Positions 18,682-59,601 of a stretch of DNA of 64,000 nucleotides are shown here, piece after piece. Positions within the stretch are counted from its first letter, which is position 1, and each line of letters begins with the position of its first letter. The DNA is from Erysipelotrichaceae bacterium (lineage in GTDB: Bacteria > Bacillota_I > Bacilli_A > Erysipelotrichales > Erysipelotrichaceae), in assembly GCA_017432005.1 (NCBI GenBank), contig JAFRKA010000015.1, positions 124,001-188,000 on the forward strand, written 5' to 3'. The position numbers and the translations under genes were made by a program. The notes under the pieces are model-generated. The model saw only the letters and a program-made list of their open reading frames with translations. It was not told where the DNA came from and did not search any database.

Positions 18682-18940
18682 ATGATCTATGATATGAATT
18701 TCTGCATACTTGCATTTGACATCCTTGAATGATCAGACTGATAAATTGAATTTGGTGCAAATTTGGTGTCAATTTTATAACGAAAAACTAAAAGATGATG
18801 CGATAGAATGGCTTAAAAACAGCCTAAAAACGTACAGAGATAAACAAAACGGAAAAAAACCAGATTCCTGTAGTTGGCACCATTATCAGATCAAGGTTCT
18901 GGAAACAGAACCTTTCTTTATGTATTTATCTGCCCGATAA
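18682..18940 (+). pseudogene. Small disrupted gene (frameshift), unknown
   Basis: AAGGAG lies well placed before an ATG at 18682, but that frame stops at 18732 after 16 codons (MIYDMNFCILAFDILE). A second frame, shifted by +1, stays open from about 18710 to 18940 and encodes a Lys/Trp-containing tail (DDAIEWLKNSLKTYRDKQNG). The two may be halves of one ~85-residue gene broken by a one-base change, or a short peptide followed by non-coding sequence. It stands at the head of the leader-peptide cluster. No family recognised. Confidence 0.35.
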
Positions 18941-18975
18941 ATTATAATAATCGTATAAAACAGTGGAGGATATGG

Positions 18976-19272
18976 ATAATAGATAAAAAAGCAGAACTCA
19001 GCAATGAAGCATTGGAAAAAGTTTCTGGCGGTTTTACGACTTCAACTATGGTAGATGAGGAAGGAAACACGATCATCACAAAATTCGGAGTCATGAATGT
19101 GTGCAGCCAGTGTGGTGCATGTGTCAATGTATGCCCGACCGGCGCTATCACCATCGGTCCTAACGGTGCTGAAATAAACGGAAACGAATGTGCGATCTGC
19201 TGGGTATGTGCAGATGTATGTCCGCTTGAAGCGATCGGCGAAAAGCAGATCATCATCCCGGCGGGATCATAA
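18976..19272 (+). CDS. Double-glycine leader fused to 2x[4Fe-4S] ferredoxin
   Basis: About 98 residues. The first 20 form a double-glycine leader (LSNEALEKVSGG). They are followed by a short linker and a ferredoxin with two complete CxxCxxCxxxCP sites, CSQCGACVNVCP and CAICWVCADVCP. A GG-type leader normally directs cleavage and export by C39 peptidase transporters, so a leader-bearing redox protein is unusual. The start is odd: GGAGGA (18965-18970) is best spaced for AUA codons at 18976 or 18979, while the only nearby ATG (18972) is out of frame. Either a rare AUA start, a one-base error, or a decayed start. Followed by 19288 in the same direction. Confidence 0.65.
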   Translation: MIDKKAELSNEALEKVSGGFTTSTMVDEEGNTIITKFGVMNVCSQCGACVNVCPTGAITIGPNGAEINGNECAICWVCADVCPLEAIGEKQIIIPAGS

Positions 19273-23607: not shown

Positions 23608-26600
23608 ATGGAAACGGTACAAGATAAAAGACGTGAACTGTCGGTATTTGAGGCCTGGGCTTTTTCAATCGGCACGGCGATCGGCTGGGGCTCTCTGGTC
23701 GTAACGGCCAATACCTATCTGGCTGAGTCCGGTCCTTTAGGCAGTGTCCTGGGGCTGATCATCGGCGGAGCGATCATGCTGGTGATGGGCAGGAACTACT
23801 ATTATCTGATGGAACTCTATCCAGATAACGGCGGAGCCTATACTTTTACGAAGGAACAGTTCGGTCATGATCACGGTTTCCTGACTTCATGGTTCCTGGC
23901 ACTGGTGTATCTGGCTGTCTTATGGGCCAACGCGACAGCCATCCCTTTGTTCGTACGCAATTTCCTCGGTGATATCTTTACTTTCGGCAGGATGTATACG
24001 CTGTTTGGCTATGAGGTCTATTTCGGTGAGACCCTGCTGACGATTGTTTCCATCCTGATCATTGCCTTGCTGTACTACAGAGGCAAGAGACTTTCCCACA
24101 TCATCATGACCATATTGGCTACCGTATTCACTTTAAGCATTACGGCTGTTTTCCTGTTTGTCATGTTGAAACACGAGGGGAATTTTGAACCGCTGTTTGT
24201 AGAGGGAAGTTCATCACTCAGACAGATCATCAATATCGCCGTCATCTCTCCATGGGCTTTCATCGGTTTTGAAAGTGTCTCCCACAGTACGGCCGATTTT
24301 TCTTTCAAAGGCGACAGGATCTTCAGGATGCTGGTGATCGCGATCGTGAGCACGATGCTTCTGTATATCTTTACGGTCTTGCTTTCAGCTGCTGCATATC
24401 CCAAAGAGTATTCCTCATGGTTCGCCTATATCTCAGATCTTAACAACAATACCGGTCTGAGTTCTTTCCCGGCTTTCTATACAGCTCATCATTATCTGGG
24501 CAATGCCGGTGTCACACTGCTGATGGCAGCCTTGTTCTCACTGATCATCACTTCGATGATCGGCAATACGACAGCTCTTTCTCAGCTGTTCTGTGCTTTA
24601 GGCAAGGACGAGATCCTGCCTGAGAAGTTTGGGAAATTAAATAAGTACGGTGTTCCGGGCAGGGGGATCCTGCTGGTAGCCGGACTTTCACTGATCACAC
24701 CTTTCCTGGGCAGGACAGCGATCGGCTGGATCGTCGATGTCACGACGCTTGGTGCTACTCTGATCTACGGTTTTGTTTCCGCTTCAGCTTATAAGGCAGC
24801 ATTGGTCAGAAATGACCGGATCGAGAAGGTCACCGGACTGCTCGGAGTCATCCTGATGATCGCATTCAGCCTTTATATCCTGGTGCCGAGTTTCGTCACA
24901 GTCAGTACGCTGGAGAAAGAGACATATTTCCTTTTCATCATCTGGAGCGTCCTGGGTTTCATCTATTTCCGTTATATCCTGGCTCACGATGAAAAAAGAC
25001 ATTACGGCAACACGATCATCGTCTGGGTCGCCCTGCTGTCGCTGGTGCTGGTCATCGCTTTGATCTGGATGAGACAGTCCATGATCTTTGCCAACCAAAC
25101 CATGCTGAAAAACGTTGAAGAGTACTATGATCATCTTTCTGATCCGAGCAAGGATCTGGATGAGCAGTATATCTATGAACAGGTCCTGAAGATGGAGGAT
25201 TCCGATAACCGGACCATGCTGATTGGTTTTGGCATGTTCATGTTTGCGATCGCGATCATGTTCACCAACTACTCATACATGAACAAGCGGACGAAGGAAA
25301 GCGAAATGATCGCAGCCATCGATCCGATGACCGGGGTCAAGAGCAAGCATGCCTATCTGATCAAGGAGAAGGAACTCAACAGCAGTATCAGTGAAGGAAG
25401 GGATACGAAATTTGCGATCGTCGTCTGTGATGTCAACGGTCTTAAAACGATCAATGATACTTTAGGTCATCAGGCCGGTGATGAACATATCTGCAAGGCC
25501 AGCCGGATGGTCTGTGAGATCTTCAAGCATTCACCTCTATACCGTATCGGCGGTGATGAATTCGTCGCCATCCTGACCGGTCAGAATTACCGCTTGCGCC
25601 GTGAGCTCATGCGTCAGCTGCACAACATGTCAGTCGACCATATCTCCGGCAATGATGTCGTCATCTCCGGAGGCATGTCCGAATACCACGCAGGAGAGGA
25701 TCTTTCGTTCCATGATGTCTTTCAGCGGGCGGATCAGCTGATGTATGAAGAGAAACAGCTGCTCAAGGGACTTGGTTCCATCAGCCGCGAAGAGAGTCCG
25801 GATGAGAGGCTGGAAGAGAACGTCTCGATCCTTGATCTCAAACGGCAGATCCTCATTGTAGAAGATGAAGCGATCAACCAGATGCTGCTGAGCAATATCC
25901 TGCAGGAGGACTATGAACTGCTGTATGCCGATGACGGTGTGGCAGCTCTTGAGATTGCCAAGGAAAACAAGGATGAACTGTCACTGGTCCTGCTGGACCT
26001 GATGCTTCCGAAAGTCAACGGTTTTGAAGTGCTCAGAGACATGAAAGGGGATGTCGATCTCAAGGATATCCCGGTCATCATCATGACGGCTGACCAGCAG
26101 TCCGAGGTCGAATGTCTGAACATGGGTGCTTCCGATTTCATTCCTAAACCTTACCCGGCACCGGAGATCATCAAAGCCCGTGTCGACAGGTGCATCGAGA
26201 TCTCCGAGAACAGGGATACGATCGAACTGACGGAGAGAGATCCGCTGACGAAACTTTACAATATCGAATACTTTGACCGTTATGTGAATATGTATGACCG
26301 TCACTATACGGATATGCCGATGGATGCGATTGTCGTCGATATTAACCGCTTCCATATGGTCAATGAACGCTACGGCAAGCAGTTCGGCGATCTGGTACTG
26401 CAGAAACTCGGTACGAGGATCAGACTGCTGGCCAGGGAAGTCGGAGGTGTAGGAGGAAGAAGAGGTTCTGATACTTTCCTGCTGTACTGTCCGCACCTTG
26501 AAGACTATGAAGCCAGACTGGAAGAACTCTCTGACGATCTGCTGGACAACGAAGATGAAAGCAGCCGTATCAGCCTGAGGATGGGCGTTTACAGCAATGC

Positions 26601-27888
26601 CGACAAGAACCTGGATATCGAAAGAAGGTTCGACAGAGCCAAGATCGCTGCCGATACGATCAAGAACACTCCGCAGAAGATCGGCATGTACGATGAAGAA
26701 CTTCATGAGACGGCTCTGTATCAGGAGAGACTGCTGGAAGATTTCCATATTTCGCTTGAAAACGATGATTTCTCGGTCTTCTACCAGCCGAAGTTCGATG
26801 TCCGTCCGGAAAAGCCGCTGCTGGCTTCTGCCGAGGCGCTGGTGCGCTGGAAACATCCTGAACTGGGCATGATATCTCCTGGTGTTTTCGTCCCGCTGCT
26901 GGAAGAAAGCGGACTTATCTATGAACTCGATACTTTCGTCTGGAAAGAAGTTGCCAAGAGGATCGCTTACTGGAAGAAGGAATTCTCTTTGTCCGTTCCG
27001 GTCTCCGTCAACGTCTCAAGGATAGATATGCTGATGCCTGATCTGAAGGAAGTCCTCTCTGACATTCTGAAAGACAATGGTCTTTCAACCGATGACATCA
27101 TCCTGGAGATCACTGAATCGGCCTATACCGGTGATTCCGATCAGGTCATTGCGATGGCCAAGGAACTCAGGAAGATCGGCTTCAGGATCGAGATGGATGA
27201 CTTCGGTACAGGCTACTCGTCACTGGGCATGCTTTCAAAGCTGCCGATCGATGTCCTGAAACTGGATATGACTTTCATCCGTTCAGCTTTCGGTGAGAAC
27301 AAGGATGTGAAGATGATCGAACTGATCATCGATATCGCTGATTACCTCCATGTGCCGGTCGTTGCCGAAGGTGTCGAGACGGCTGAACAGATGGTGGTCC
27401 TCAAAGCTTTGGGCTGCGATCTGATCCAGGGCTACTATTTCTCAAGACCGCTGGAACCGGAGAAGTTCGATGAGTTCCTCAACGATCACCGTGAACTGAA
27501 TACGAATGCCATTCCGGAAGCAGGCAAATCCTACATAAGCATCTCCAAGGCTTTACGCGGTGATTATGAATGCATCTGCTACATCAATATCGAAAGCAAC
27601 GCCTATATCGAGTTCTATGCTGGTCAGGACAAGGAACTGCATATCACGACGGACGGAACAGATTTCTTCTCCGACAGAAACAGGATCTTTGAGGATGTCT
27701 GTGCTGAAGATCTGCCTAAGCTCAAACAGATCCTGAACAAAGATGACCTGGAGGAATATCTGAACGGCGAGAAAGAACTGGATCTGCTGTTCAGAAAGAA
27801 CGATCAGAGCGTCTGTCACCTGCAGACGATCAGGACCAGGAACAAGGATGCCAGACATATCGTTCTGGGTGTCAGGAAGGAAAAATAA
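23608..27888 (+). CDS. APC-type permease fused to GGDEF-REC-GGDEF-EAL c-di-GMP module
   Basis: 1426 residues. Residues 1-~560 form an amino-acid/polyamine (APC) permease with ~12-13 membrane segments, starting SVFEAWAFSIGTAIGWGSL. Then follow an intact GGDEF domain (RIGGDEF, GGDEF 649-653, no RxxD site), a receiver (~745-870, phospho-acceptor Asp797 in LLDLMLP, Lys in PKPYP) and a degenerate GGDEF (RGSDTF, 952-957). An EAL domain comes next with all key residues (EAL 1076-1078, ITES, DDFGTG 1197-1202, Lys1218, Glu1254, QGYYFSRP). A final ~110-residue sensor like those at 8751 ends the protein. It should both make and cut c-di-GMP, perhaps in response to transported solute. AAGGGA precedes the ATG. 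Confidence 0.88.
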   Translation: METVQDKRRELSVFEAWAFSIGTAIGWGSLVVTANTYLAESGPLGSVLGLIIGGAIMLVMGRNYYYLMELYPDNGGAYTFTKEQFGHDHGFLTSWFLALVYLAVLWANATAIPLFVRNFLGDIFTFGRMYTLFGYEVYFGETLLTIVSILIIALLYYRGKRLSHIIMTILATVFTLSITAVFLFVMLKHEGNFEPLFVEGSSSLRQIINIAVISPWAFIGFESVSHSTADFSFKGDRIFRMLVIAIVSTMLLYIFTVLLSAAAYPKEYSSWFAYISDLNNNTGLSSFPAFYTAHHYLGNAGVTLLMAALFSLIITSMIGNTTALSQLFCALGKDEILPEKFGKLNKYGVPGRGILLVAGLSLITPFLGRTAIGWIVDVTTLGATLIYGFVSASAYKAALVRNDRIEKVTGLLGVILMIAFSLYILVPSFVTVSTLEKETYFLFIIWSVLGFIYFRYILAHDEKRHYGNTIIVWVALLSLVLVIALIWMRQSMIFANQTMLKNVEEYYDHLSDPSKDLDEQYIYEQVLKMEDSDNRTMLIGFGMFMFAIAIMFTNYSYMNKRTKESEMIAAIDPMTGVKSKHAYLIKEKELNSSISEGRDTKFAIVVCDVNGLKTINDTLGHQAGDEHICKASRMVCEIFKHSPLYRIGGDEFVAILTGQNYRLRRELMRQLHNMSVDHISGNDVVISGGMSEYHAGEDLSFHDVFQRADQLMYEEKQLLKGLGSISREESPDERLEENVSILDLKRQILIVEDEAINQMLLSNILQEDYELLYADDGVAALEIAKENKDELSLVLLDLMLPKVNGFEVLRDMKGDVDLKDIPVIIMTADQQSEVECLNMGASDFIPKPYPAPEIIKARVDRCIEISENRDTIELTERDPLTKLYNIEYFDRYVNMYDRHYTDMPMDAIVVDINRFHMVNERYGKQFGDLVLQKLGTRIRLLAREVGGVGGRRGSDTFLLYCPHLEDYEARLEELSDDLLDNEDESSRISLRMGVYSNADKNLDIERRFDRAKIAADTIKNTPQKIGMYDEELHETALYQERLLEDFHISLENDDFSVFYQPKFDVRPEKPLLASAEALVRWKHPELGMISPGVFVPLLEESGLIYELDTFVWKEVAKRIAYWKKEFSLSVPVSVNVSRIDMLMPDLKEVLSDILKDNGLSTDDIILEITESAYTGDSDQVIAMAKELRKIGFRIEMDDFGTGYSSLGMLSKLPIDVLKLDMTFIRSAFGENKDVKMIELIIDIADYLHVPVVAEGVETAEQMVVLKALGCDLIQGYYFSRPLEPEKFDEFLNDHRELNTNAIPEAGKSYISISKALRGDYECICYINIESNAYIEFYAGQDKELHITTDGTDFFSDRNRIFEDVCAEDLPKLKQILNKDDLEEYLNGEKELDLLFRKNDQSVCHLQTIRTRNKDARHIVLGVRKEK

Positions 27889-41798: not shown

Positions 41799-44708
41799 AT
41801 GGTGCAGATGAAGAAGATGATAATGCTGTCGGTATTGTGTCTGGCAACTGTTTTCAGTGTGCTTCTTCCTTCCGCAATAAAGGGAGAAGAAGGCGGACGC
41901 AAGGTCGTAAGGGTAGGCTGGTATGATTCGACCTACAATACCGTTGATGAGAACGGCTACCGTTCAGGCTATGCCTATGAGTATCAGCTGAAGCTGTCGG
42001 CTTATAACGGCTGGACTTATGAATATGTCGAGGGCAGCTGGTCTGATCTGCTGCACATGCTGGAAACGGGCGAGATCGATCTGATGAGCGATGTCTCCTA
42101 TACGCCTGAAAGAGAAGAGTTCATGTACTATGCGGATCTGCCGATGGGTACGGAAGAGTATTATCTTTTCACTGCTCCTGATGCCGATCGGATCTCGATC
42201 ACGGACAGGACTTCGGTCAACGGCAAAAAGATCGGTATAAACAAAGACAGTTTTCAGGCCAGGCTTTATGAAGAATGGGCTAAAGAGAATAATATAAATT
42301 CAAATATAATCTACGTCACCTGCACTGAAGATGAATCACTGCAGATGCTGGAAAAGGGTGAACTGGACGGTTATGTCACCGTCGATTCTTTCGTCGAACC
42401 TTCCAGAGCCGTACCGGCATACAAGATCGGTTCTTCGGATTATTATTTCGCTGTCAGCAAGAACCGTCCCGATCTGCTCGATGATCTGAATTATGCGATG
42501 AGCAGGATCCAGGATGAGAACCGTTACTACAATGTGGAGATGTATGAGAAGTATATCCGCAGGACCGGTGCCAATGCTTTCCTCTCTTCTGAAGAGACGG
42601 CATGGCTGGCCAAGCACGGCAAGATCAGAGTGGGCTATCAGGACAATTATCTGGCTTTCTGTGCAGTCGACAAGTCGACCGGTGAACTGACCGGTGTGCT
42701 CAAGGATTATCTGGAGATCGCTGCCGACTGCATCAGCAACGCTCATCTGGAATTTGAGGCGATCGGTTATTCAACGGCTGAGGATGCCTTAAGGGCATTA
42801 AAAGCCGGTGAAGTGGACTGCGTCTTCCCGGCCAATCTGAGCGGTTATGAAGCGGAGATACAGGGAACGGTCATGACTCCGGCTTTGATGAATACCGAGA
42901 TGTATGCGGTAGTCAGAGCTACCGATCCGAATATCTTTGCCAAGAAGGAACAGGTCATCGCTGCCGTCAATGAAGGCAACCCGAACTATGATGCTTTCCT
43001 GTTCAAGCATTATCCTTCCTGGAAGAAGGTCTATTATCCTAATTCGGAAGTCTGTCTGCAGGCTGTGGCCAATGAAGCGGCAGACTGTCTGATCATCAGT
43101 AACTACCGTTACAACAATATCGCGAGACTTTGTGAGAAATACCGTCTGACGACTTTCTCGATCGGTATCGATATGGATTACTGCATGGCAGTAGCCAAGG
43201 GCAATACGGAACTGTATTCCGTTCTGGCCAAGGTCATCAGCATCGTTCCTGATTCCTATGTGAATGCCGCTCTGACACACTATATCGCTGAAGAGGCGAA
43301 ACTGACACTGAGTGATATCCTGCTGGACAATCTGCCGGCCGTCATGCTGGTGACATCGGCCATCGTGCTGATCATCCTGGGTCTGCTGATCCAGAACATG
43401 AGAGCCGTCAAAAAGGCTAACAGTCTTATTTCGGCTACTGAGATCGATGATCTTACCGGTCTTTATAACCGGAAGTATTTCTTCCAGTATGCCAACAACA
43501 TGCATCGTTCCAATCCGGATCTGCCATTGGATGCGATCGTCGTCAATATCGAACAGTTCCATTCCATCAACGCCCTCTATGGCCGTGAGATGGGTGATGA
43601 TATCTTGAGAGCTTTAGGCAGTGAATTATCTGCTGTGGCGAAAGAAGGAAACGGCATCGCGGGAAGATTCGAAGCGGACCGTTTCGATATCTACTGTCTG
43701 CACAAAGACGATTATCAGCAGACTTTTGACCGTCTGCAGAAGAAGCTCGATGAACTGGCACCTAACGCGAATATCCGTCTGCGTATGGGTGTCATGCCAT
43801 GGCGTGAGAAGCTCGAACCGGTACAGATGTTCGACAGAGCCAGGACGGCCTGCAACATGGCCAGAGGCCATTACAATAAGCCGCTGATGATCTATGACGA
43901 TACCGTCAGTGAAAGAGAGAATTATGAACAGCGGCTGGTAAATGACCTGCGTCAGGCACTGGACAATGGCGAATTCGAGGTCTTCTATCAGCCTAAATAC
44001 AATATCCAGTCCGATCCGGCCAGACTCGTGAGCACGGAAGCTTTAGTGAGATGGCGTCATCATGATCTGGGCATCATTGAACCGGGTGATTTCATTCCGC
44101 TGTTTGAGAAAAACGGTCAGGTCTCACTCCTTGACAATTATGTCTGGAGGAAGGCAGCGGAACAGATCGCAGAATGGAGAGACAGATACGGTTTCGTCAT
44201 GCCTGTATCCGTCAACCTTTCCAGAGTCGATGTCTTTGACCCGAAACTGGAGGAGACGATCGAAGAGATCCTGAAGAAGAACGATCTTGAATATGATGCG
44301 TTCAAACTGGAGATCACGGAATCGGCCTATACCGAGAATGCCGATCAGGTCATTCAGGTCGTAGGGAATCTGCGTGAGAAGGGCTTTGAAGTGGAGATGG
44401 ATGACTTCGGTACGGGTTATTCTTCCTTGAACATGCTGTCATCGATGCCGATCGATGTGCTGAAGATGGACAAGGAATTCATCAGGAACATCGACCATGA
44501 AGAGAAAGACAGACATCTGGTGGCTCTGATCATCGATATCGCCAAGAACCTGAAAGTTCCGGTCATCGCGGAAGGTGTCGAAAGAGCGACACAGCTGGAA
44601 CTCCTCAAGCAGATGGGCTGTGAGATCGTCCAGGGTTATTATTTCTCCCGTCCGCTCCCGGCTGATAAATTTGAAGAGAGATATCTGAAGGAAGGAGGAG
44701 ACAGATGA
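41799..44708 (+). CDS. Membrane c-di-GMP phosphodiesterase with twin periplasmic solute-binding domains
   Basis: 969 residues. A signal or anchor (~5-25) leads to two bacterial extracellular solute-binding (SBP_bac_3) domains, ~35-255 and ~270-490, the first starting KVVRVGWYDSTYN and the second KIRVGYQDNYLAF. One membrane helix (~507-530) joins them to a GGDEF-like domain whose signature is degenerate (RFEADRF instead of GGDEF). An intact EAL domain follows (EAL 747-749, ITES, DDFGTG 868-873, VIAEGVE, QGYYFSRP). It should sense an amino acid outside and cut c-di-GMP inside. The ATG of the next gene overlaps its stop (ATGA). Confidence 0.88.
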   Translation: MVQMKKMIMLSVLCLATVFSVLLPSAIKGEEGGRKVVRVGWYDSTYNTVDENGYRSGYAYEYQLKLSAYNGWTYEYVEGSWSDLLHMLETGEIDLMSDVSYTPEREEFMYYADLPMGTEEYYLFTAPDADRISITDRTSVNGKKIGINKDSFQARLYEEWAKENNINSNIIYVTCTEDESLQMLEKGELDGYVTVDSFVEPSRAVPAYKIGSSDYYFAVSKNRPDLLDDLNYAMSRIQDENRYYNVEMYEKYIRRTGANAFLSSEETAWLAKHGKIRVGYQDNYLAFCAVDKSTGELTGVLKDYLEIAADCISNAHLEFEAIGYSTAEDALRALKAGEVDCVFPANLSGYEAEIQGTVMTPALMNTEMYAVVRATDPNIFAKKEQVIAAVNEGNPNYDAFLFKHYPSWKKVYYPNSEVCLQAVANEAADCLIISNYRYNNIARLCEKYRLTTFSIGIDMDYCMAVAKGNTELYSVLAKVISIVPDSYVNAALTHYIAEEAKLTLSDILLDNLPAVMLVTSAIVLIILGLLIQNMRAVKKANSLISATEIDDLTGLYNRKYFFQYANNMHRSNPDLPLDAIVVNIEQFHSINALYGREMGDDILRALGSELSAVAKEGNGIAGRFEADRFDIYCLHKDDYQQTFDRLQKKLDELAPNANIRLRMGVMPWREKLEPVQMFDRARTACNMARGHYNKPLMIYDDTVSERENYEQRLVNDLRQALDNGEFEVFYQPKYNIQSDPARLVSTEALVRWRHHDLGIIEPGDFIPLFEKNGQVSLLDNYVWRKAAEQIAEWRDRYGFVMPVSVNLSRVDVFDPKLEETIEEILKKNDLEYDAFKLEITESAYTENADQVIQVVGNLREKGFEVEMDDFGTGYSSLNMLSSMPIDVLKMDKEFIRNIDHEEKDRHLVALIIDIAKNLKVPVIAEGVERATQLELLKQMGCEIVQGYYFSRPLPADKFEERYLKEGGDR

Positions 44709-46837
44709 GCAATATGTTAAAGAAACTTACTGTCATCTTCCTGCTTCTGATCACTATATTTACACCATTGAAGATCCATGCGGACGATGAACAGAAGATC
44801 GTCAGAGTCGGCTGGCATGAGGAACCGTATTTCATCACTGATGAATACGGAAGATGGTCAGGCTATACCTATGAGTATCAGCGCAAGATCGCGGCCTATA
44901 CCGGCTGGAAATACGAGTATGTGGAAGGCAGCTGGTCACAGCTGCTGCAGATGCTGAAAGACGGCGAGATCGATATGATGGGCAACGTCTCTTTTACGGA
45001 AGAAAGAGCGAAAGAACTGCTGTTTGCCTCTTCGGCCATGGGTACTGAATCCTATTATCTCTTTGTCAGTCCTGATGAAAACAGGATCAAAGAAGAGGAT
45101 TACAGTTCGATAAACAACAAAAGAGTAGGTGTCACCAAAGGCAGTATTCAGAGCGAGATGTTCAGAAACTGGGCGGAGACGCATTCGCTGACACCGCAGA
45201 TCATTGAACTCAGCGGTATGGAAGAAGAATCACTGGAACTGTTGGGTAAAAAGATCGATGCTTTCGTGACTGTCGATGTCTACGGTGATCAGGATACATC
45301 TGTTCCTCTCTGGAAGATCGGTTCATCGGATTTCTATTTCGCTCTAAACAAAGACCGTTCCGATCTGCTGATAGAACTCAATGCCGCCATGAGCAGTATC
45401 CAGTCCGAGAATGCGTATTTCAATGAACAGCTTCATGAGAAATATCTGAGTGACAATCAGACGATCTATTATCTCAATGATGTGGAAAAAGACTGGCTGT
45501 TCTCTCACGATATCATCAGAGTAGGCTATCAGGATAATTATCTGGCTTTCTGTGCCAAGGACACACTGACAGGAGAACTGATCGGTGCACTCAAGGATTA
45601 TCTTGATTATGCGAAAGACGGTTTTGAGAATGCCCAGCTGCATTTTGAAGCAGTCTGTTATCCTACTGCCGGAGCAGCTTTAGAAGCGCTAAAGAAAGGC
45701 GAGATCGACTGCATGTTCCCGGCAAACCTCACGGAATATGAAAGCGAGAGTCTGGGTGTACTTACAACGCCGGCTTTCATGACTACGGAGATGGATGCAG
45801 TCGTAAGAGCTTCTGATCAGAAGGAGTTCGTCCGTAAACAGGATGTCATCGTAGCGGTCAATGAAGGTAATACCAACTACGAGATGTTTCTGAAGGATAA
45901 TTATCCGGGCTGGCAGATAAAGTATTATCGTGATACACTTGAAGGTCTCAATGGCATATACAGAGGCGAAGCGGACTGTGTCATCATCAGTAACTATCGT
46001 TTCAGCAATATCGCCAAACAGTGTGAGAAGCTCAATCTCACGACTATCTATACCGGTGTGGATCTGGATTATTCACTGGCCGTCAGAGAAGGTGAAACTG
46101 AGCTGTATTCGATCCTGACGAAAGTCTCAAAGATCGTACCGAACAGTGTCATCAATTCAGCGCTGACTTATTATTCGACGGAAGATGCCAAGACCACTTT
46201 CCTGGATGTCATCAGGAACAATATCATTGCCGTACTGGTAAGTATCACGATGATATTCTCACTGATCATCATGCTGCTGATACGCGATATCAGAGCAGAG
46301 AAGAAGATCGTGGAAGAAGAGAGGATGCTGAATGCGCTCAATAAGAAAGTATTCGTCGATGCCCTGACTTCCGTCAGGAACAAGGGTGCCTACTCCAACT
46401 ATATCCAGGATCTTCAGGACAAGATCGACAGCGGTGAACCGGTAAGGTTCGCGATCGGTGTCTTTGACTGCAATGACCTTAAACACGTCAATGACAGTCA
46501 CGGACATGACAAGGGCGATATCTACCTGAAGAAAGCCAGCCGACTGATCTGTGAGATCTTCCAGCATTCACCGGTCTTCAGGATCGGCGGAGATGAATTC
46601 GCCGTGATCCTGGAGAATGAAGACCTGGACAATAAAGATGAACTGGTAAAGCAGTTTGAAACAGCCGCCAAACAGATAAGCAGTTCGGCATGTAATCTCT
46701 GGGAGCAGGTGCATCTGGCCTTAGGCGTAGCCGAATATGATCCTGAACTCGACGGATCCGTCATCGATACTTCACGAAGAGCCGATAAGATCATGTATGA
46801 GAATAAACGCTTGAGCAAGCAGGATAAACAATCATGA
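44705..46837 (+). CDS. Membrane diguanylate cyclase with twin periplasmic solute-binding domains
   Basis: 710 residues: a signal/anchor (~8-23), two SBP_bac_3 domains very like those of the preceding gene (KIVRVGWHEEPYF, and IIRVGYQDNYLAF), one membrane helix (~500-522), then a GGDEF domain with DALTSVRNKGAY and intact RIGGDEF (GGDEF 628-632). No RxxD inhibitory site. There is no EAL domain. GGAGG precedes the ATG, which overlaps the upstream stop. So the pair shares a sensor and has opposite outputs. A terminator follows. Confidence 0.88.
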   Translation: MSNMLKKLTVIFLLLITIFTPLKIHADDEQKIVRVGWHEEPYFITDEYGRWSGYTYEYQRKIAAYTGWKYEYVEGSWSQLLQMLKDGEIDMMGNVSFTEERAKELLFASSAMGTESYYLFVSPDENRIKEEDYSSINNKRVGVTKGSIQSEMFRNWAETHSLTPQIIELSGMEEESLELLGKKIDAFVTVDVYGDQDTSVPLWKIGSSDFYFALNKDRSDLLIELNAAMSSIQSENAYFNEQLHEKYLSDNQTIYYLNDVEKDWLFSHDIIRVGYQDNYLAFCAKDTLTGELIGALKDYLDYAKDGFENAQLHFEAVCYPTAGAALEALKKGEIDCMFPANLTEYESESLGVLTTPAFMTTEMDAVVRASDQKEFVRKQDVIVAVNEGNTNYEMFLKDNYPGWQIKYYRDTLEGLNGIYRGEADCVIISNYRFSNIAKQCEKLNLTTIYTGVDLDYSLAVREGETELYSILTKVSKIVPNSVINSALTYYSTEDAKTTFLDVIRNNIIAVLVSITMIFSLIIMLLIRDIRAEKKIVEEERMLNALNKKVFVDALTSVRNKGAYSNYIQDLQDKIDSGEPVRFAIGVFDCNDLKHVNDSHGHDKGDIYLKKASRLICEIFQHSPVFRIGGDEFAVILENEDLDNKDELVKQFETAAKQISSSACNLWEQVHLALGVAEYDPELDGSVIDTSRRADKIMYENKRLSKQDKQS

Positions 46838-55130: not shown

Positions 55131-56522
55131 ATGATCCTGACTATAACATATGAGGGAAGCAATACCCAGGATCTAGGCTATCTGCTGCACAAGAATCCTG
55201 AAAGAGCCCAGCAGTTTGAACTTACTTATGGAAAAGCTTATGTCTTCTATCCGGAAGTAAGTGATGAAAGAACAACTGCTGCTTTATTGCTTGATATCGA
55301 CCCGATCGATCTGGCCAAGGGAAAGCTTGGCAGCAGGGAAGGCGGGCTTTTTGATTATGTCAACGACAGGCCGTATGCTTCAACTTCTTTCATGTCGACA
55401 GCGATCTCCAAAGTATTCGGCACAGCTATGGCTGGCACATGCAAGAAGAAACCGGAACTTGTAGATGTTCCTTTGAAACTGACGGCCAAGGTATATGCAT
55501 TAAGAGATAACGGCAATGAAGAACTGGCTAAGAAGCTGTTTGAGCCATTAGGCTATACCGTAAGCACCGAAAGAAAAGTACTGGATGAAAAGTTCCCTGA
55601 ATGGGGCAATTCTCCGTATATAGATCTGACAATATCCGGAACGGTAAGACTTTGTGATCTGCTGAATCATCTTTATGTCATGATCCCGGTCTTTGACAGG
55701 CAGAAACACTACTACTATTCGGATGACGAGATTAAAAAACTCCTTGATCATGGCAAGGGCTGGCTGGAAAACCATCCGGAAAAAGAAAGGATCGCTTACC
55801 GTTATCTGGCCAGAAGAAAAGGCTATGCCAGAAAGGCAATAGATGTGCTGAGTGCCGAAGAGATAGTAGGGGAGAGCGAAGAAGAGATCGATGAGGAGAA
55901 GGAAGAACGTATCCCGCTAAATACGCAAAGGATGGATGCAGTATTTAAGGAAGCCATTAACAGCGGTGCCAGAAGCGTGATCGATCTGGGTTGTGGCGAA
56001 GGAAGACTTACTTCGATGCTGCTGAGTGAACCGCAGATCAGGAAAGTCACGGCAGTCGATGTCTCTGTCTCGGCATTGGAAAAAGCGGCCAGACGTCTTA
56101 AGCTCGACAGGATGGCGACTTTCAGAAAAGACAAGCTCGATCTGATTCAGGGTTCACTGACTTATAAAGACAGCAGATTCGAAGGGTATGACTGTGCCTG
56201 TCTGGTCGAGGTGCTTGAACATATCGATCCTTCCAGGATCCCGGCACTTGAAAGAGTCGTCTTTGAATTCGCTGCACCTCAGACAGTCATCGTTACGACG
56301 CCAAACAGGGAATATAACGCAAATTATGAAAGCATGAAAGAGAATTCTTTAAGGCATTCAGACCACCGTTTTGAATGGAGCAGGGAAGAATTCAAGAACT
56401 GGACCGATCATGTATGTGAGAAGTTTAATTATACATGCGAGATCAAGGGGATCGGTGAGAACGACATAAATCTTGGATCACCGACGCAGATGGGAGTATT
56501 TACCAGAAATGAGCAAGTATGA
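55131..56522 (+). CDS. hen1: Bacterial Hen1: 3'-terminal RNA ribose 2'-O-methyltransferase
   Basis: 463 residues with an N-terminal Hen1-specific domain (~1-240) and a C-terminal SAM methyltransferase. VIDLGCGEGRL (~285) is motif I, EVLEHID (~364) and RHSDHRFEW (~406) carry the E-E-H-H metal ligands of Hen1. It methylates the 2'-OH at the 3' end of a damaged RNA before ligation by Pnkp. AAGGAAA precedes the ATG. Its stop lies inside the start of the Pnkp gene (14-base overlap), as in other bacteria. Confidence 0.92.
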   Translation: MILTITYEGSNTQDLGYLLHKNPERAQQFELTYGKAYVFYPEVSDERTTAALLLDIDPIDLAKGKLGSREGGLFDYVNDRPYASTSFMSTAISKVFGTAMAGTCKKKPELVDVPLKLTAKVYALRDNGNEELAKKLFEPLGYTVSTERKVLDEKFPEWGNSPYIDLTISGTVRLCDLLNHLYVMIPVFDRQKHYYYSDDEIKKLLDHGKGWLENHPEKERIAYRYLARRKGYARKAIDVLSAEEIVGESEEEIDEEKEERIPLNTQRMDAVFKEAINSGARSVIDLGCGEGRLTSMLLSEPQIRKVTAVDVSVSALEKAARRLKLDRMATFRKDKLDLIQGSLTYKDSRFEGYDCACLVEVLEHIDPSRIPALERVVFEFAAPQTVIVTTPNREYNANYESMKENSLRHSDHRFEWSREEFKNWTDHVCEKFNYTCEIKGIGENDINLGSPTQMGVFTRNEQV

Positions 56523-59082
56523 GATCAGTATTCCTGAAGTATGTCTGGTTGCCATGGTAGGTGCCACCTCTTCAGGAAAGACACAATTCGCAAACAGGTA
56601 TTTCAAACCGACGGAAGTGCTCTCTTCTGACTTTTTCCGTGCCATAATCACCGATAACGAAAACGATCAAGGGATCTCTAAAGAAGCCTTTGATCTGCTT
56701 TTCTATGCCGCAAACAAAAGGCTGAACAATATGAAGCTGACAGTCATCGATGCCACCAACATTCAGAAGGATGCTAGAGCGGAAATTGTTGCCTTGGCAA
56801 AGAAGCAGAATGTTCATGCTGTAGCAATTGTGCTTGATCTTCCTGAGCAGTTGCTGCAGGAAAGAAACAGACAAAGACCTGAAAGAAACCTGCCGCCCAG
56901 AGTGATATCCAACCATTGTCGTGAAGTAAAAAGAGCGATCAAGTATCTGAAGAAAGACGGTTTCAGATTTGTCTATGTCATCAATTCCATTGAACAGTTT
57001 AACAACGTTGAGGTCATAAGAACTAAGCTGTGGAACGACAGAAAAGACGAGCATGGACCATTCGATATCATCGGTGATATCCACGGCTGCTGTGACGAAC
57101 TGGTCATGCTGCTGGAGAAACTTGGATATGTTAGCTCAGAGCACGGATATATACATCCTGAAGGCAGGAAAGCCGCTTTCCTGGGTGACTTCTGTGACCG
57201 TGGTCCGAAGAATGTTGAAGTATTGAAGCTTGTCATGGACATGGTCAAAGAGGGTAATGCCCTGGCTGTACCAGGCAACCATGACGTAAAGCTGTTCAAG
57301 TATCTGATTGGTAAAGAGATCAAGATCACTCACGGTATCGATAAAACGATTGAGGAACTGGAAGCAGAAGGCGAGGAATTCAAAAAGGAAGTATCCAAAC
57401 TCCTCGATTCTCTGATCAGCCATTATGTACTTGATGATGGCAAACTTGTCATCTCCCACGCCGGTATCAAACAGGAATACATCGGCAGGGCATCAATGAA
57501 GGTAAGGGATTTCTGTCTGTATGGAGAAACTACGGGCGAAGTCGATACCTACGGTTTGCCTGTAAGACTGGACTGGGCTTCTGATTACAGAGGCAGGGCA
57601 ACGATTGTCTACGGCCATATCGCAAACACCGAAGTAAAAGCGGTCAACGGAACGTACTGCATCGATACCGGATGCGTGTTCGGCGGCAAACTGAGCGCTT
57701 TCCGTTATCCGGAAAGGCAGGTCGTTGAGGTAGATGCACTTAAGCAGTACTATGAACCGATAAAACCTCTTGAAGAAAAGAAAGAAGAGGATACAGGCGA
57801 TGTGCTGATTGCCCAGGACTATAACCGCAAGATGCACATCACTACCGAACTGCTTCCTTCGATCGATATCCATGAAAACAACGCAGCAGCAGCTCTTGAG
57901 ATCATGTCGCGATTTGCGGCTGATCCTCATTGGCTGATCTATCTGCCTCCGACGATGTCGCCATGTGAGACCAGTTTCGAGGAAGGATATCTGGAATATC
58001 CAACACAGGCTTTTGAATACTATCGCAAAAGAGGTGTGAAAAACGTCGTGTGCGAAAAGAAACACATGGGTTCTAGAGCCGTCATCGTCTTATGCAAAGA
58101 CAACAAGAGTGCAAGAGAACGTTTCGGAATCAATGACGAAAGCCGGGGGATCATCTATACCAGGACCGGAAGGAAATTCTTTGATGACAACAATATCGAA
58201 AAACAGCTGCTCGGCAGACTTGGCGAAGTCCTTAACAAGACGAGATTCTGGAAAGATTTCGAAACCGATTGGGTATGTTTGGACTGTGAACTCATGCCGT
58301 GGTCTGAGAAAGCCCAGGGACTCTTACGGACCCAGTATGGCCCGACCGGATATGCAGGTATCGACAGCCTTGATAATGCAGTAGAAGCCTTAAAGAGAGT
58401 CTGCATGCGTCCTAATAACGCATTTAATGTAAGCGAGCTTACTACCGGGCAGAACATCGATCCAAAAGTCTTATTAGATAAGTTTACATCCAAGAAGGAA
58501 GATATCGAAAGATACATCGACGCTTACAGGGAATATTGCTGGAAGGTTGAGAATGTCGATGATATCCGTATCGCACCGTTCCATCTTCTGGCAACGGAAG
58601 GGAAGGTCTATTCAGACCAGAAACACGTATGGCATATAGAAACGATCAGGAAGTATATGACCGGCATCGATCCTGTGTTCATGGCGACTGATTATATCTG
58701 TGTTGATACTGAGAATGAAGAAAGCATCAACAATGGTATCAGATGGTGGCTGGACCTTACTTCTTCGGGAGGGGAGGGAATGGTCGTCAAACCTGAAACC
58801 TATATCGCGAGAGAAAACGGCAGGCTTTTACAGCCGGCAGTAAAATGCAGAGGCAGAGAATATCTGCGGATTATCTATGGTCCTGAATATCTTGAACCCG
58901 AACATCTTGAAAGATTGAAGAAGAGATCTTTGGGCAGAAAGAGATCACTGGCCGAAAGGGAATTCTCTTTAGGCATGGAATCACTGTATCGCTTTGTAAA
59001 GAAAGAACCGTTATACAAGGTGCATGAATGCGCTTTTGCGGTCATGGCTCTCGAAAGCGAACCGGTAGATCCAAGATTATAA
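56509..59082 (+). CDS. pnkp: Bacterial polynucleotide kinase-phosphatase-ligase (Pnkp)
   Basis: 857 residues with three modules. The kinase has the P-loop VGATSSGKTQ (~12-21). The phosphatase is a calcineurin-like domain, GDIHGC (~188), GDFCDRGPKN (~225), and GNHDVKL (~257). The C-terminal ligase shows EKKHMGSRAVIV (Lys nucleophile, ~517), DCELMPW, EGMVVKPE and KCRGREYLRIIYG. It removes 3' phosphates, phosphorylates 5' ends and seals RNA breaks together with Hen1. The ORF could start at 56473, but the overlap ATG at 56509 fits the family N-terminus. Confidence 0.93.
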   Translation: MSKYEISIPEVCLVAMVGATSSGKTQFANRYFKPTEVLSSDFFRAIITDNENDQGISKEAFDLLFYAANKRLNNMKLTVIDATNIQKDARAEIVALAKKQNVHAVAIVLDLPEQLLQERNRQRPERNLPPRVISNHCREVKRAIKYLKKDGFRFVYVINSIEQFNNVEVIRTKLWNDRKDEHGPFDIIGDIHGCCDELVMLLEKLGYVSSEHGYIHPEGRKAAFLGDFCDRGPKNVEVLKLVMDMVKEGNALAVPGNHDVKLFKYLIGKEIKITHGIDKTIEELEAEGEEFKKEVSKLLDSLISHYVLDDGKLVISHAGIKQEYIGRASMKVRDFCLYGETTGEVDTYGLPVRLDWASDYRGRATIVYGHIANTEVKAVNGTYCIDTGCVFGGKLSAFRYPERQVVEVDALKQYYEPIKPLEEKKEEDTGDVLIAQDYNRKMHITTELLPSIDIHENNAAAALEIMSRFAADPHWLIYLPPTMSPCETSFEEGYLEYPTQAFEYYRKRGVKNVVCEKKHMGSRAVIVLCKDNKSARERFGINDESRGIIYTRTGRKFFDDNNIEKQLLGRLGEVLNKTRFWKDFETDWVCLDCELMPWSEKAQGLLRTQYGPTGYAGIDSLDNAVEALKRVCMRPNNAFNVSELTTGQNIDPKVLLDKFTSKKEDIERYIDAYREYCWKVENVDDIRIAPFHLLATEGKVYSDQKHVWHIETIRKYMTGIDPVFMATDYICVDTENEESINNGIRWWLDLTSSGGEGMVVKPETYIARENGRLLQPAVKCRGREYLRIIYGPEYLEPEHLERLKKRSLGRKRSLAEREFSLGMESLYRFVKKEPLYKVHECAFAVMALESEPVDPRL

Positions 59083-59139
59083 TTGTTTTCCTGGCAGGCA
59101 TAAAACGTGACTGTCAGGAAACTTTATGGAAGCAAAATC

Positions 59140-59601
59140 ATGACAACAGAAAACAACAAAAACGCAGTGTTGCTTATCGGCCTCCAGGGAAGTGGAAAGT
59201 CAACCTTTTACAATAAGCATTTTCAGAATTACATACACATCAGTCTGGATGAGCTTCATACCAGAAACAAGGAAATGAACCTCATCTTAGAATGTCTTGA
59301 AGAAGGAAAAAGCTTTGTGGTAGACAACACCAACCCGGCAAAGTCTGACAGGCAGAGATATATTCCAGTGGCTAAGGAAAACGGATATAAAGTGACCGGT
59401 TATTATTTTGCCGCTAGGATCGCCGATTGTATACGAAGAAACAGTCTCAGAGAAGGCAAATCAAGAGTTCCTGACAAAGCCATTCTTGCCACCTACAACA
59501 GGCTTGAAATACCATCCTATGACGAAGGCTTTGATGAACTGTATTATGTGATCTTGGAGAATGATGAATTCAAGATAGAGGAGTGGAAAGATGAAATTTG
59601 A
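59140..59601 (+). CDS. Small P-loop kinase, T4-Pnk-like (AAA_33)
   Basis: 153 residues from the ATG at 59140 (12 codons upstream also open). LLIGLQGSGKSTFYNKHF (~11-28) is the P-loop; VVDNTNPAKSDRQRYIPVAK (~65) is the Asp/Asn and Arg segment of the polynucleotide-kinase subfamily, and the end EIPSYDEGFDELYYV is also typical. It likely phosphorylates 5'-OH RNA or DNA ends. It is one of several kinases in the operon and overlaps the Thg1-like gene by 11 bases. Confidence 0.8.
   Translation: MTTENNKNAVLLIGLQGSGKSTFYNKHFQNYIHISLDELHTRNKEMNLILECLEEGKSFVVDNTNPAKSDRQRYIPVAKENGYKVTGYYFAARIADCIRRNSLREGKSRVPDKAILATYNRLEIPSYDEGFDELYYVILENDEFKIEEWKDEI

Follow-up and report, generated by a model that had tools for sequence, protein, structure and literature searches.

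An APC-fold permease joined to cyclic di-GMP enzymes in an Erysipelotrichaceae bacterium: a candidate membrane sensor and its relatives

Bacterial transceptors are regarded as rare, and whether transporter conformation drives signaling is described as unresolved even for CbrA, an SLC5-STAC-PAS-kinase protein that is called a rare transceptor and whose activating signal is likewise given as unresolved (PMC13022988). According to PMC7096432, CbrA transports histidine, its kinase activities are not significantly affected by histidine, and SLC5-STAC domains occur in fusion with diguanylate cyclases as well. Ks-Amt5, an ammonium-transporter domain fused to a histidine kinase, has lost transport and only senses ammonium (PMC5764959). 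Here we describe a gene in a 64,000-nucleotide stretch of an Erysipelotrichaceae bacterium (assembly GCA_017432005.1, contig JAFRKA010000015.1, positions 124,001 to 188,000; hereafter the window), which encodes an APC-fold amino-acid permease joined to domains for the synthesis and breakdown of cyclic dimeric GMP (c-di-GMP). We consider it probable, from domain order, active-site residues and relatives, that this focal chain is a membrane sensor, with the APC fold as ligand input, a transmembrane (TM) hairpin leading to the cyclase and a phosphorelay acting on the phosphodiesterase.

The focal chain resembles the CbrA/CrbS family in that a LeuT-fold transporter domain stands at the N-terminus, in one chain with a signaling output (kinases and, in some members, cyclases). 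Its membrane domain, however, is APC (SLC7-like) rather than SLC5/SSF: at E up to 0.01, the Pfam matches in the membrane part all belong to AA_permease families, none to SLC5/SSF or Amt. The proposed coupler is a hairpin of TM13 and TM14, whereas CbrA has a cytoplasmic STAC bundle; the Na2-site lysine of CbrA, K196, has no counterpart in the focal family; and the REC-GGDEF-EAL half and the HD-GYP outputs further distinguish the focal family from CbrA/CrbS. Ks-Amt5 and the PDB chains 8qj3, 8qj4 and 8qpf (‘Ammonium transporter’, with a C-terminal GGDEF match at 412-625) are comparable in having a transporter fold as receptor with a kinase or GGDEF domain directly attached and no HAMP, but theirs is the Amt fold for ammonium, and they lack REC, a second GGDEF and EAL. 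Sensor kinases and cyclases of the 5TMR/S-component fold also couple a transporter-related membrane fold to GGDEF, EAL or histidine kinase domains, their fold being that of the ECF S-component (PMC11109136). The transporters AdiC, GkApcT, BasC and CAT1/CAT4 share the fold and the TM1/TM6 site of the focal permease (Z 31-41, with sequence matches too), but carry no signaling fusion, and the ApcT-type members have a lysine in TM5. Full-text searches of open-access PMC turned up no bacterial amino-acid permease described as fused to a GGDEF, EAL or kinase domain, which is not proof of absence, and the word permease does not occur in the main text of a 2022 census of c-di-GMP sensing (PMC8846402). 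Because the idea is shared with CbrA and the Amt sensors, while the membrane fold, the coupler and the two-enzyme output differ and no earlier description was found in those texts, we place the focal chain with the known transporter-fused sensors as a new variant.

Domain order, fold and active sites of the focal chain

The chain is a single uninterrupted open reading frame of 1426 codons, with its ATG at 23608 and its stop at 27888 (window coordinates), organized as follows.

23608-27888, + strand: whole chain, 1426 amino acids; APC permease, TM hairpin, GGDEF, REC, degenerate GGDEF, EAL and PAS-like domain
23638-24984, + strand: 12-TM APC-fold permease, residues 11-459 (Pfam, AlphaFold2 model, AdiC superposition, conservation)
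25012-25314, + strand: TM13-TM14 hairpin, residues 469-569, with a short extracytoplasmic loop; proposed signal coupler (model and hydropathy)
25312-25758, + strand: GGDEF domain 1, residues 569-717, with intact signature and no I-site; predicted active diguanylate cyclase (Pfam, residue check)
25849-26178, + strand: receiver domain (REC), residues 748-857, with phospho-acceptor D797 and K847 (Pfam Response_reg, residue check)
26212-26706, + strand: degenerate GGDEF domain 2, about residues 869-1033, GRRGSDTF (residue check)
26746-27450, + strand: EAL domain, residues 1047-1281; predicted active phosphodiesterase (Pfam, residue check)
27520-27876, + strand: C-terminal PAS-like domain, about residues 1305-1423 (weak fold matches)

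Pfam places AA_permease_2 on residues 11-447 (E 7.1e-29, 101.4 bits against a cut-off of 27), GGDEF on 569-717 and on a second stretch, Response_reg on 748-857 and EAL on 1047-1281. An earlier reading from the sequence only had proposed a permease, GGDEF, receiver, degenerate GGDEF and intact EAL in one chain, and the open frame, Pfam and the residue checks bear this out.

An AlphaFold2 model of residues 1-726, built with 80 aligned sequences, has a mean predicted local distance difference test (pLDDT) score of 91.2 and a predicted TM-score (pTM) of 0.79. Residues 6-468 of the model superpose on the arginine/agmatine antiporter AdiC (3ob6) with Z 41.1 and a root-mean-square deviation of 3.0 over 419 aligned residues, so the model has the complete set of 12 helices of a LeuT-type permease; further APC transporters follow AdiC among the fold matches. 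Lost permease helices, which would have undercut the sequence-only reading, are thus rejected by the model and the fold comparison. That reading had counted 12-13 helices; the full permease fold stands, and model and hydropathy correct the count to 12 plus 2 extra, or 14 TM segments in total.

The two extra helices follow TM12 at residues 469-509 and 515-569, and the second, TM14, runs without a break into GGDEF domain 1 in the model. In 101/101 fused frames of the family described below, permease and output are separated by at least two hydrophobic helices, whereas standalone relatives end at or shortly past TM12 with little or nothing beyond. The hairpin is thus the feature that accompanies signaling. 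The Pfam result contains no HAMP linker and no STAC match, although the presence of a STAC model in the library was unchecked; a HAMP linker was set aside and a STAC linker seems unlikely, with the TM hairpin filling that position.

For the GGDEF, RxxD, receiver and EAL residues checked, we assume the roles that are established for these domains. GGDEF domain 1 carries the signature GGDEF at 648-652, which is intact in 84 of the 85 fused frames with a first GGDEF; its RxxD I-site is replaced by F639 and S642, and the arginine and aspartate occur together in 0/85. GGDEF domain 2 reads GRRGSDTF, and none of the 34 full-chain frames has GG[DE]EF at this place, while all 34 have the receiver aspartate. 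The eight catalytic EAL positions (E, N, E, D, D, K, E, Q) are all kept in the focal chain and are identical in 35/35 EAL-bearing frames. Because the loci were fetched by their permease, the choice of loci did not favor conserved enzyme domains. The conserved signatures therefore predict one working cyclase and one working phosphodiesterase in the focal chain.

The C-terminal tail had been taken for a sensor domain. Its predicted fold has the strand and helix order of PAS (pLDDT 79.9), but Pfam PAS models match the tail in 0/44 family members. Most Foldseek matches to the tail model are PAS domains, with weak E-values (best 5.2e-3), and in another protein of the same genome a stretch homologous to the tail overlaps a Pfam PAS_9 match. 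The tail is thus weakly indicated to be PAS-like. Elsewhere in the window, a PAS-PAS-GGDEF-like protein at 8751-10082 has an N-terminal part weakly related to the focal tail (match to 1296-1422).

The permease fusion family

A permease alignment including TM13-TM14 was searched against 84,980 species genomes; at least 572 relatives were confirmed out of 596 pattern matches, and the analysis used the best 80 stretches. This sample favors fused forms, because the query includes TM13-TM14. A permease-signaling fusion frame is present in 79 of these best 80 loci. The remaining locus, L069, has a broken copy only, while L080 has an intact permease-GGDEF gene next to an interrupted best-matching copy. 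Over all loci, after near-identical frames and those with a permease match below 400 residues were left out, there are 116 distinct permease frames. These comprise 49 permease-GGDEF proteins, 34 permease-GGDEF-REC-GGDEF-EAL chains with or without a tail and one more cut by the locus end, 15 frames with a histidine kinase (HK) in HK-REC(-REC) order, one with GGDEF-EAL, one with HD-GYP and 15 with permease only. Two of the last are cut, L109 at a contig end and L107 before an apparent HD-GYP start, which leaves 13 standalone permeases. Pfam confirms the HD-GYP output in L058 and a PAS-kinase form in L136. The permease-GGDEF proteins are about 740 amino acids long and have no other sensory domain. 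The domain order of the focal chain, which the sequence-only reading had suggested seeking in other genomes, is accordingly found there; its statement that no standard architecture has this order is right as far as the searched papers and named families go, yet the architecture occurs widely.

The loci carry the organism names given by their submitters, in nearly all cases to metagenome bins. By these names the 80 loci divide into 71 Bacillota, 7 Actinomycetota, 1 Chloroflexota and 1 Thermodesulfobacteriota, and the odd phyla need care for that reason. In the GTDB family of the focal genome, 33/272 genomes match at E 1e-100, 21 of them with a frame of fused size (at least 589 amino acids) and 12 with frames of only about 470-523 amino acids. 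An even sample of the phylum gave matches in 8/392 genomes, with fused frames in the focal genome only. The family is a large one of gut bacteria and seems to employ a transporter fold for chemical sensing.

Permease trees were made by a quick method, with support from the Shimodaira-Hasegawa-like approximate likelihood ratio test (SH-aLRT) only and no inferred root. In the tree of 116 permease domains one branch separates the fused forms from all 13 standalone permeases (SH-aLRT 100), and a 75-row set with 5 standalone rows gives the same branch with SH-aLRT 99. When the root is placed on the standalones, the permease-kinases branch first, L136 excepted, and the full-chain label requires 5 changes, of which starred branches force 3. 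On this sequence evidence the permease is a portable putative sensor module, found within one clade on GGDEF, GGDEF-REC-GGDEF-EAL, GGDEF-EAL, HD-GYP and hybrid histidine kinases. The standalones share G26-W27-G28 with the fused forms and differ from the GGDEF-fused ones at T33, W106, E222, S225 and H226. Two of them, L133 (2954-4393) and L138 (3095-4510), adjoin sugar-transfer-associated ATP-grasp genes (PF14397), a possible hint at the ancestral substrate; a third, L131, adjoins a gene with a borderline QueC match just below the cut-off, and together these neighbors are too little to name a substrate.

The two halves of the focal chain also occur apart. Downstream sequence of 700 bases or more is available for 44 permease-GGDEF loci (2 more are too short); 13 of the 44 have a next gene of the REC-GGDEF-EAL kind and 3 another kind of signaling gene directly downstream. 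We read the adjacent permease-GGDEF and REC-GGDEF-EAL genes as a split form of the focal chain, and on account of these neighboring-gene forms the chain divides into two halves that we propose as two inputs. The focal genome itself has an operon (L011) of HK-REC, REC-GGDEF-EAL, HPt and permease-HK-REC-REC genes; its REC-GGDEF-EAL gene and the second half of the focal chain are one and the same module. The same operon occurs in L134 and L137, and with cut edges in L079, L081 and L121; in L079 and L081 the permease-kinase operon with its HPt gene leads directly into a permease-GGDEF-REC-GGDEF-EAL gene.

Ligand input, transport and competing explanations

Conservation, measured as mean column entropy over 99 fused permease rows, concentrates on the expected binding site. 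Entropy is lowest in TM3 (0.97), TM1 (1.04), TM6 (1.12) and TM10 (1.14) and lies between 1.39 and 2.24 in the remaining helices, with TM11 (2.15) and TM5 (2.24) highest. The motifs are G26-W27-G28 in TM1 and W216-A217-F218-I219-G220-F221-E222 in TM6; G26, W27, G28, Y101, N108, W216, A217, G220 and F221 are identical in 99/99 rows. In TM5, residues 169-185 contain K, R or H in 0/99 rows, so that the lysine of the ApcT/GkApcT type, which falls near V173 in a profile alignment, is absent. This lysine serves proton coupling in GkApcT and ApcT (PMC13022988). Because the binding-site helices are conserved and TM5 has no basic residue, the fused permeases have probably kept ligand binding, and the sequences do not support ApcT-like uptake driven by protons.

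In the mechanism we propose, an amino-acid-like solute would bind at the TM1/TM6 site of the APC fold, and the resulting conformational change would pass through the TM13-TM14 hairpin, whose last helix is continuous with GGDEF in the model. Movement of the hairpin would then set, in one direction or the other, the dimerization or activity of the diguanylate cyclase. The half made up of REC, degenerate GGDEF, EAL and PAS-like domains would act as a phosphodiesterase gated by receiver phosphorylation, with the phosphate supplied by a histidine-kinase/HPt relay; in several relatives the presumed relay kinase is itself a permease fusion. The protein would thus integrate an external solute signal, acting on c-di-GMP synthesis, with a phosphorelay signal acting on its breakdown. 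A bolder version, to which we give somewhat less than an even chance, is that the family is a dedicated APC-fold receptor family in herbivore gut bacteria of several orders, with permease plus hairpin as a general ligand sensor on every class of c-di-GMP enzyme and on hybrid kinases. The focal form would then be a two-solute comparator, in which one ligand sets synthesis via TM14 and a second, permease-kinase-borne signal sets breakdown via REC-EAL.

Several observations weigh against the sensor interpretation. A plain transporter would retain the invariant binding-site residues as well, and G26-W27-G28 is found in the standalone permeases too. No kinase or HPt gene lies beside the focal gene, so the relay input is borrowed from relatives, and 28/44 permease-GGDEF loci have no detected signaling gene directly downstream. 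In CbrA, the nearest studied precedent, coupling of transporter to kinase is unproven (PMC13022988 and PMC7096432). Concerning the read-out, a search of the focal genome gave no match to PilZ, which a control found in 5 genomes, and none to c-di-GMP-I or c-di-GMP-II riboswitches, where the controls also gave no match and absence is therefore not shown. The genome does have many GGDEF/EAL genes.

The sequence-only reading had gone further and taken the transport state to be the signal, as in a transceptor. That the permease is the input module is retained here, with outputs swapped within a clade, 12 helices kept and the binding-site helices most conserved; the further claim, that the transport state is what signals, is only partly supported. 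A true transceptor, in which the permease would still transport an amino acid and turnover of the transport cycle rather than mere binding would drive the cyclase, seems to us unlikely. The complete 12-helix fold and conserved TM1/TM6 site would suit it, as would the histidine transport of the fused SLC5 protein CbrA and W216, presumably the counterpart of the AdiC TM6 tryptophan. CAT-type relatives transport without a TM5 lysine, which also counts in its favor. Against it stand the absence of the TM5 lysine from all fused rows, the precedent of Ks-Amt5 and the five positions at which GGDEF-fused permeases depart from standalones. Nor does the reverse arrangement, in which the permease is an ordinary transporter under the control of the c-di-GMP and phosphorelay domains fused to it, or serves them only as a membrane anchor, account well for the family. 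It would explain why the transporter binding-site features are all kept, and KimA, a transporter of related fold (8b70 among the fold matches), binds c-di-AMP. However, histidine kinases and HD-GYP also occur on this module, and such outputs would be expected behind a sensor; permease-GGDEF proteins lack any further sensory domain; and the c-di-GMP-binding I-site is missing from every first GGDEF domain. A 12-helix protein with a conserved polar site would moreover be a costly anchor. We regard both forms of this explanation as quite improbable.

An error of frame or assembly that joins neighboring genes can draw on the adjacent permease-GGDEF and REC-GGDEF-EAL genes of relatives, and the sequence-only reading had named it as a possible refutation. 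It has next to no probability here. A second full-length copy in the same genome is 54% identical over residues 10-1425, the same chain recurs in 34 distinct frames, and in the isolate Lachnospiraceae AC2029 (L025) it lies in a 1326-codon frame on a 3.86-Mb contig. Paralogue, relatives and isolate contig together reject a chimera.

If the sensor interpretation is right, the same permease on different enzymatic outputs offers a clean system for separating ligand binding, transport and c-di-GMP read-out. The short permease-GGDEF proteins suit such a separation, having a simple enzyme read-out and no additional sensory domain. The family further points to a route by which nutrient sensing could feed into c-di-GMP in bacteria of rumen and gut.

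Genomic context and other features of the window

The focal genome contains further permease fusions. A permease joined to HisKA-HATPase-REC-REC is 1087 amino acids long, and a broken permease copy with a GGDEF fragment (L009, C32, 5446-6582) lies beside intact GGDEF genes. In Pfam, the focal gene is flanked by DUF6508 upstream and a Castor/Pollux-TrkA-like protein downstream, neighbors that give no clue to the ligand.

Two adjacent genes at 41799-46837 each have two apparent solute-binding-protein domains, the first ending in GGDEF-EAL and the second in GGDEF; from their sequences, they look like another nutrient-type input to c-di-GMP. A Hen1-type methyltransferase-like protein (55131-56522), a protein resembling bacterial Pnkp kinase-phosphatase-ligase (56473-59082) and a Thg1-like protein (59591-60361), named from reading the translations rather than from a family search, may form an RNA-repair cluster at 55131-60361. 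A reverse-transcriptase-like frame of 309 amino acids lies at 62977-63906 in a stretch of low G+C (0.34). At 18874-19272 is a short two-cluster ferredoxin-like protein, and the leader before it resembles a double-glycine bacteriocin leader.

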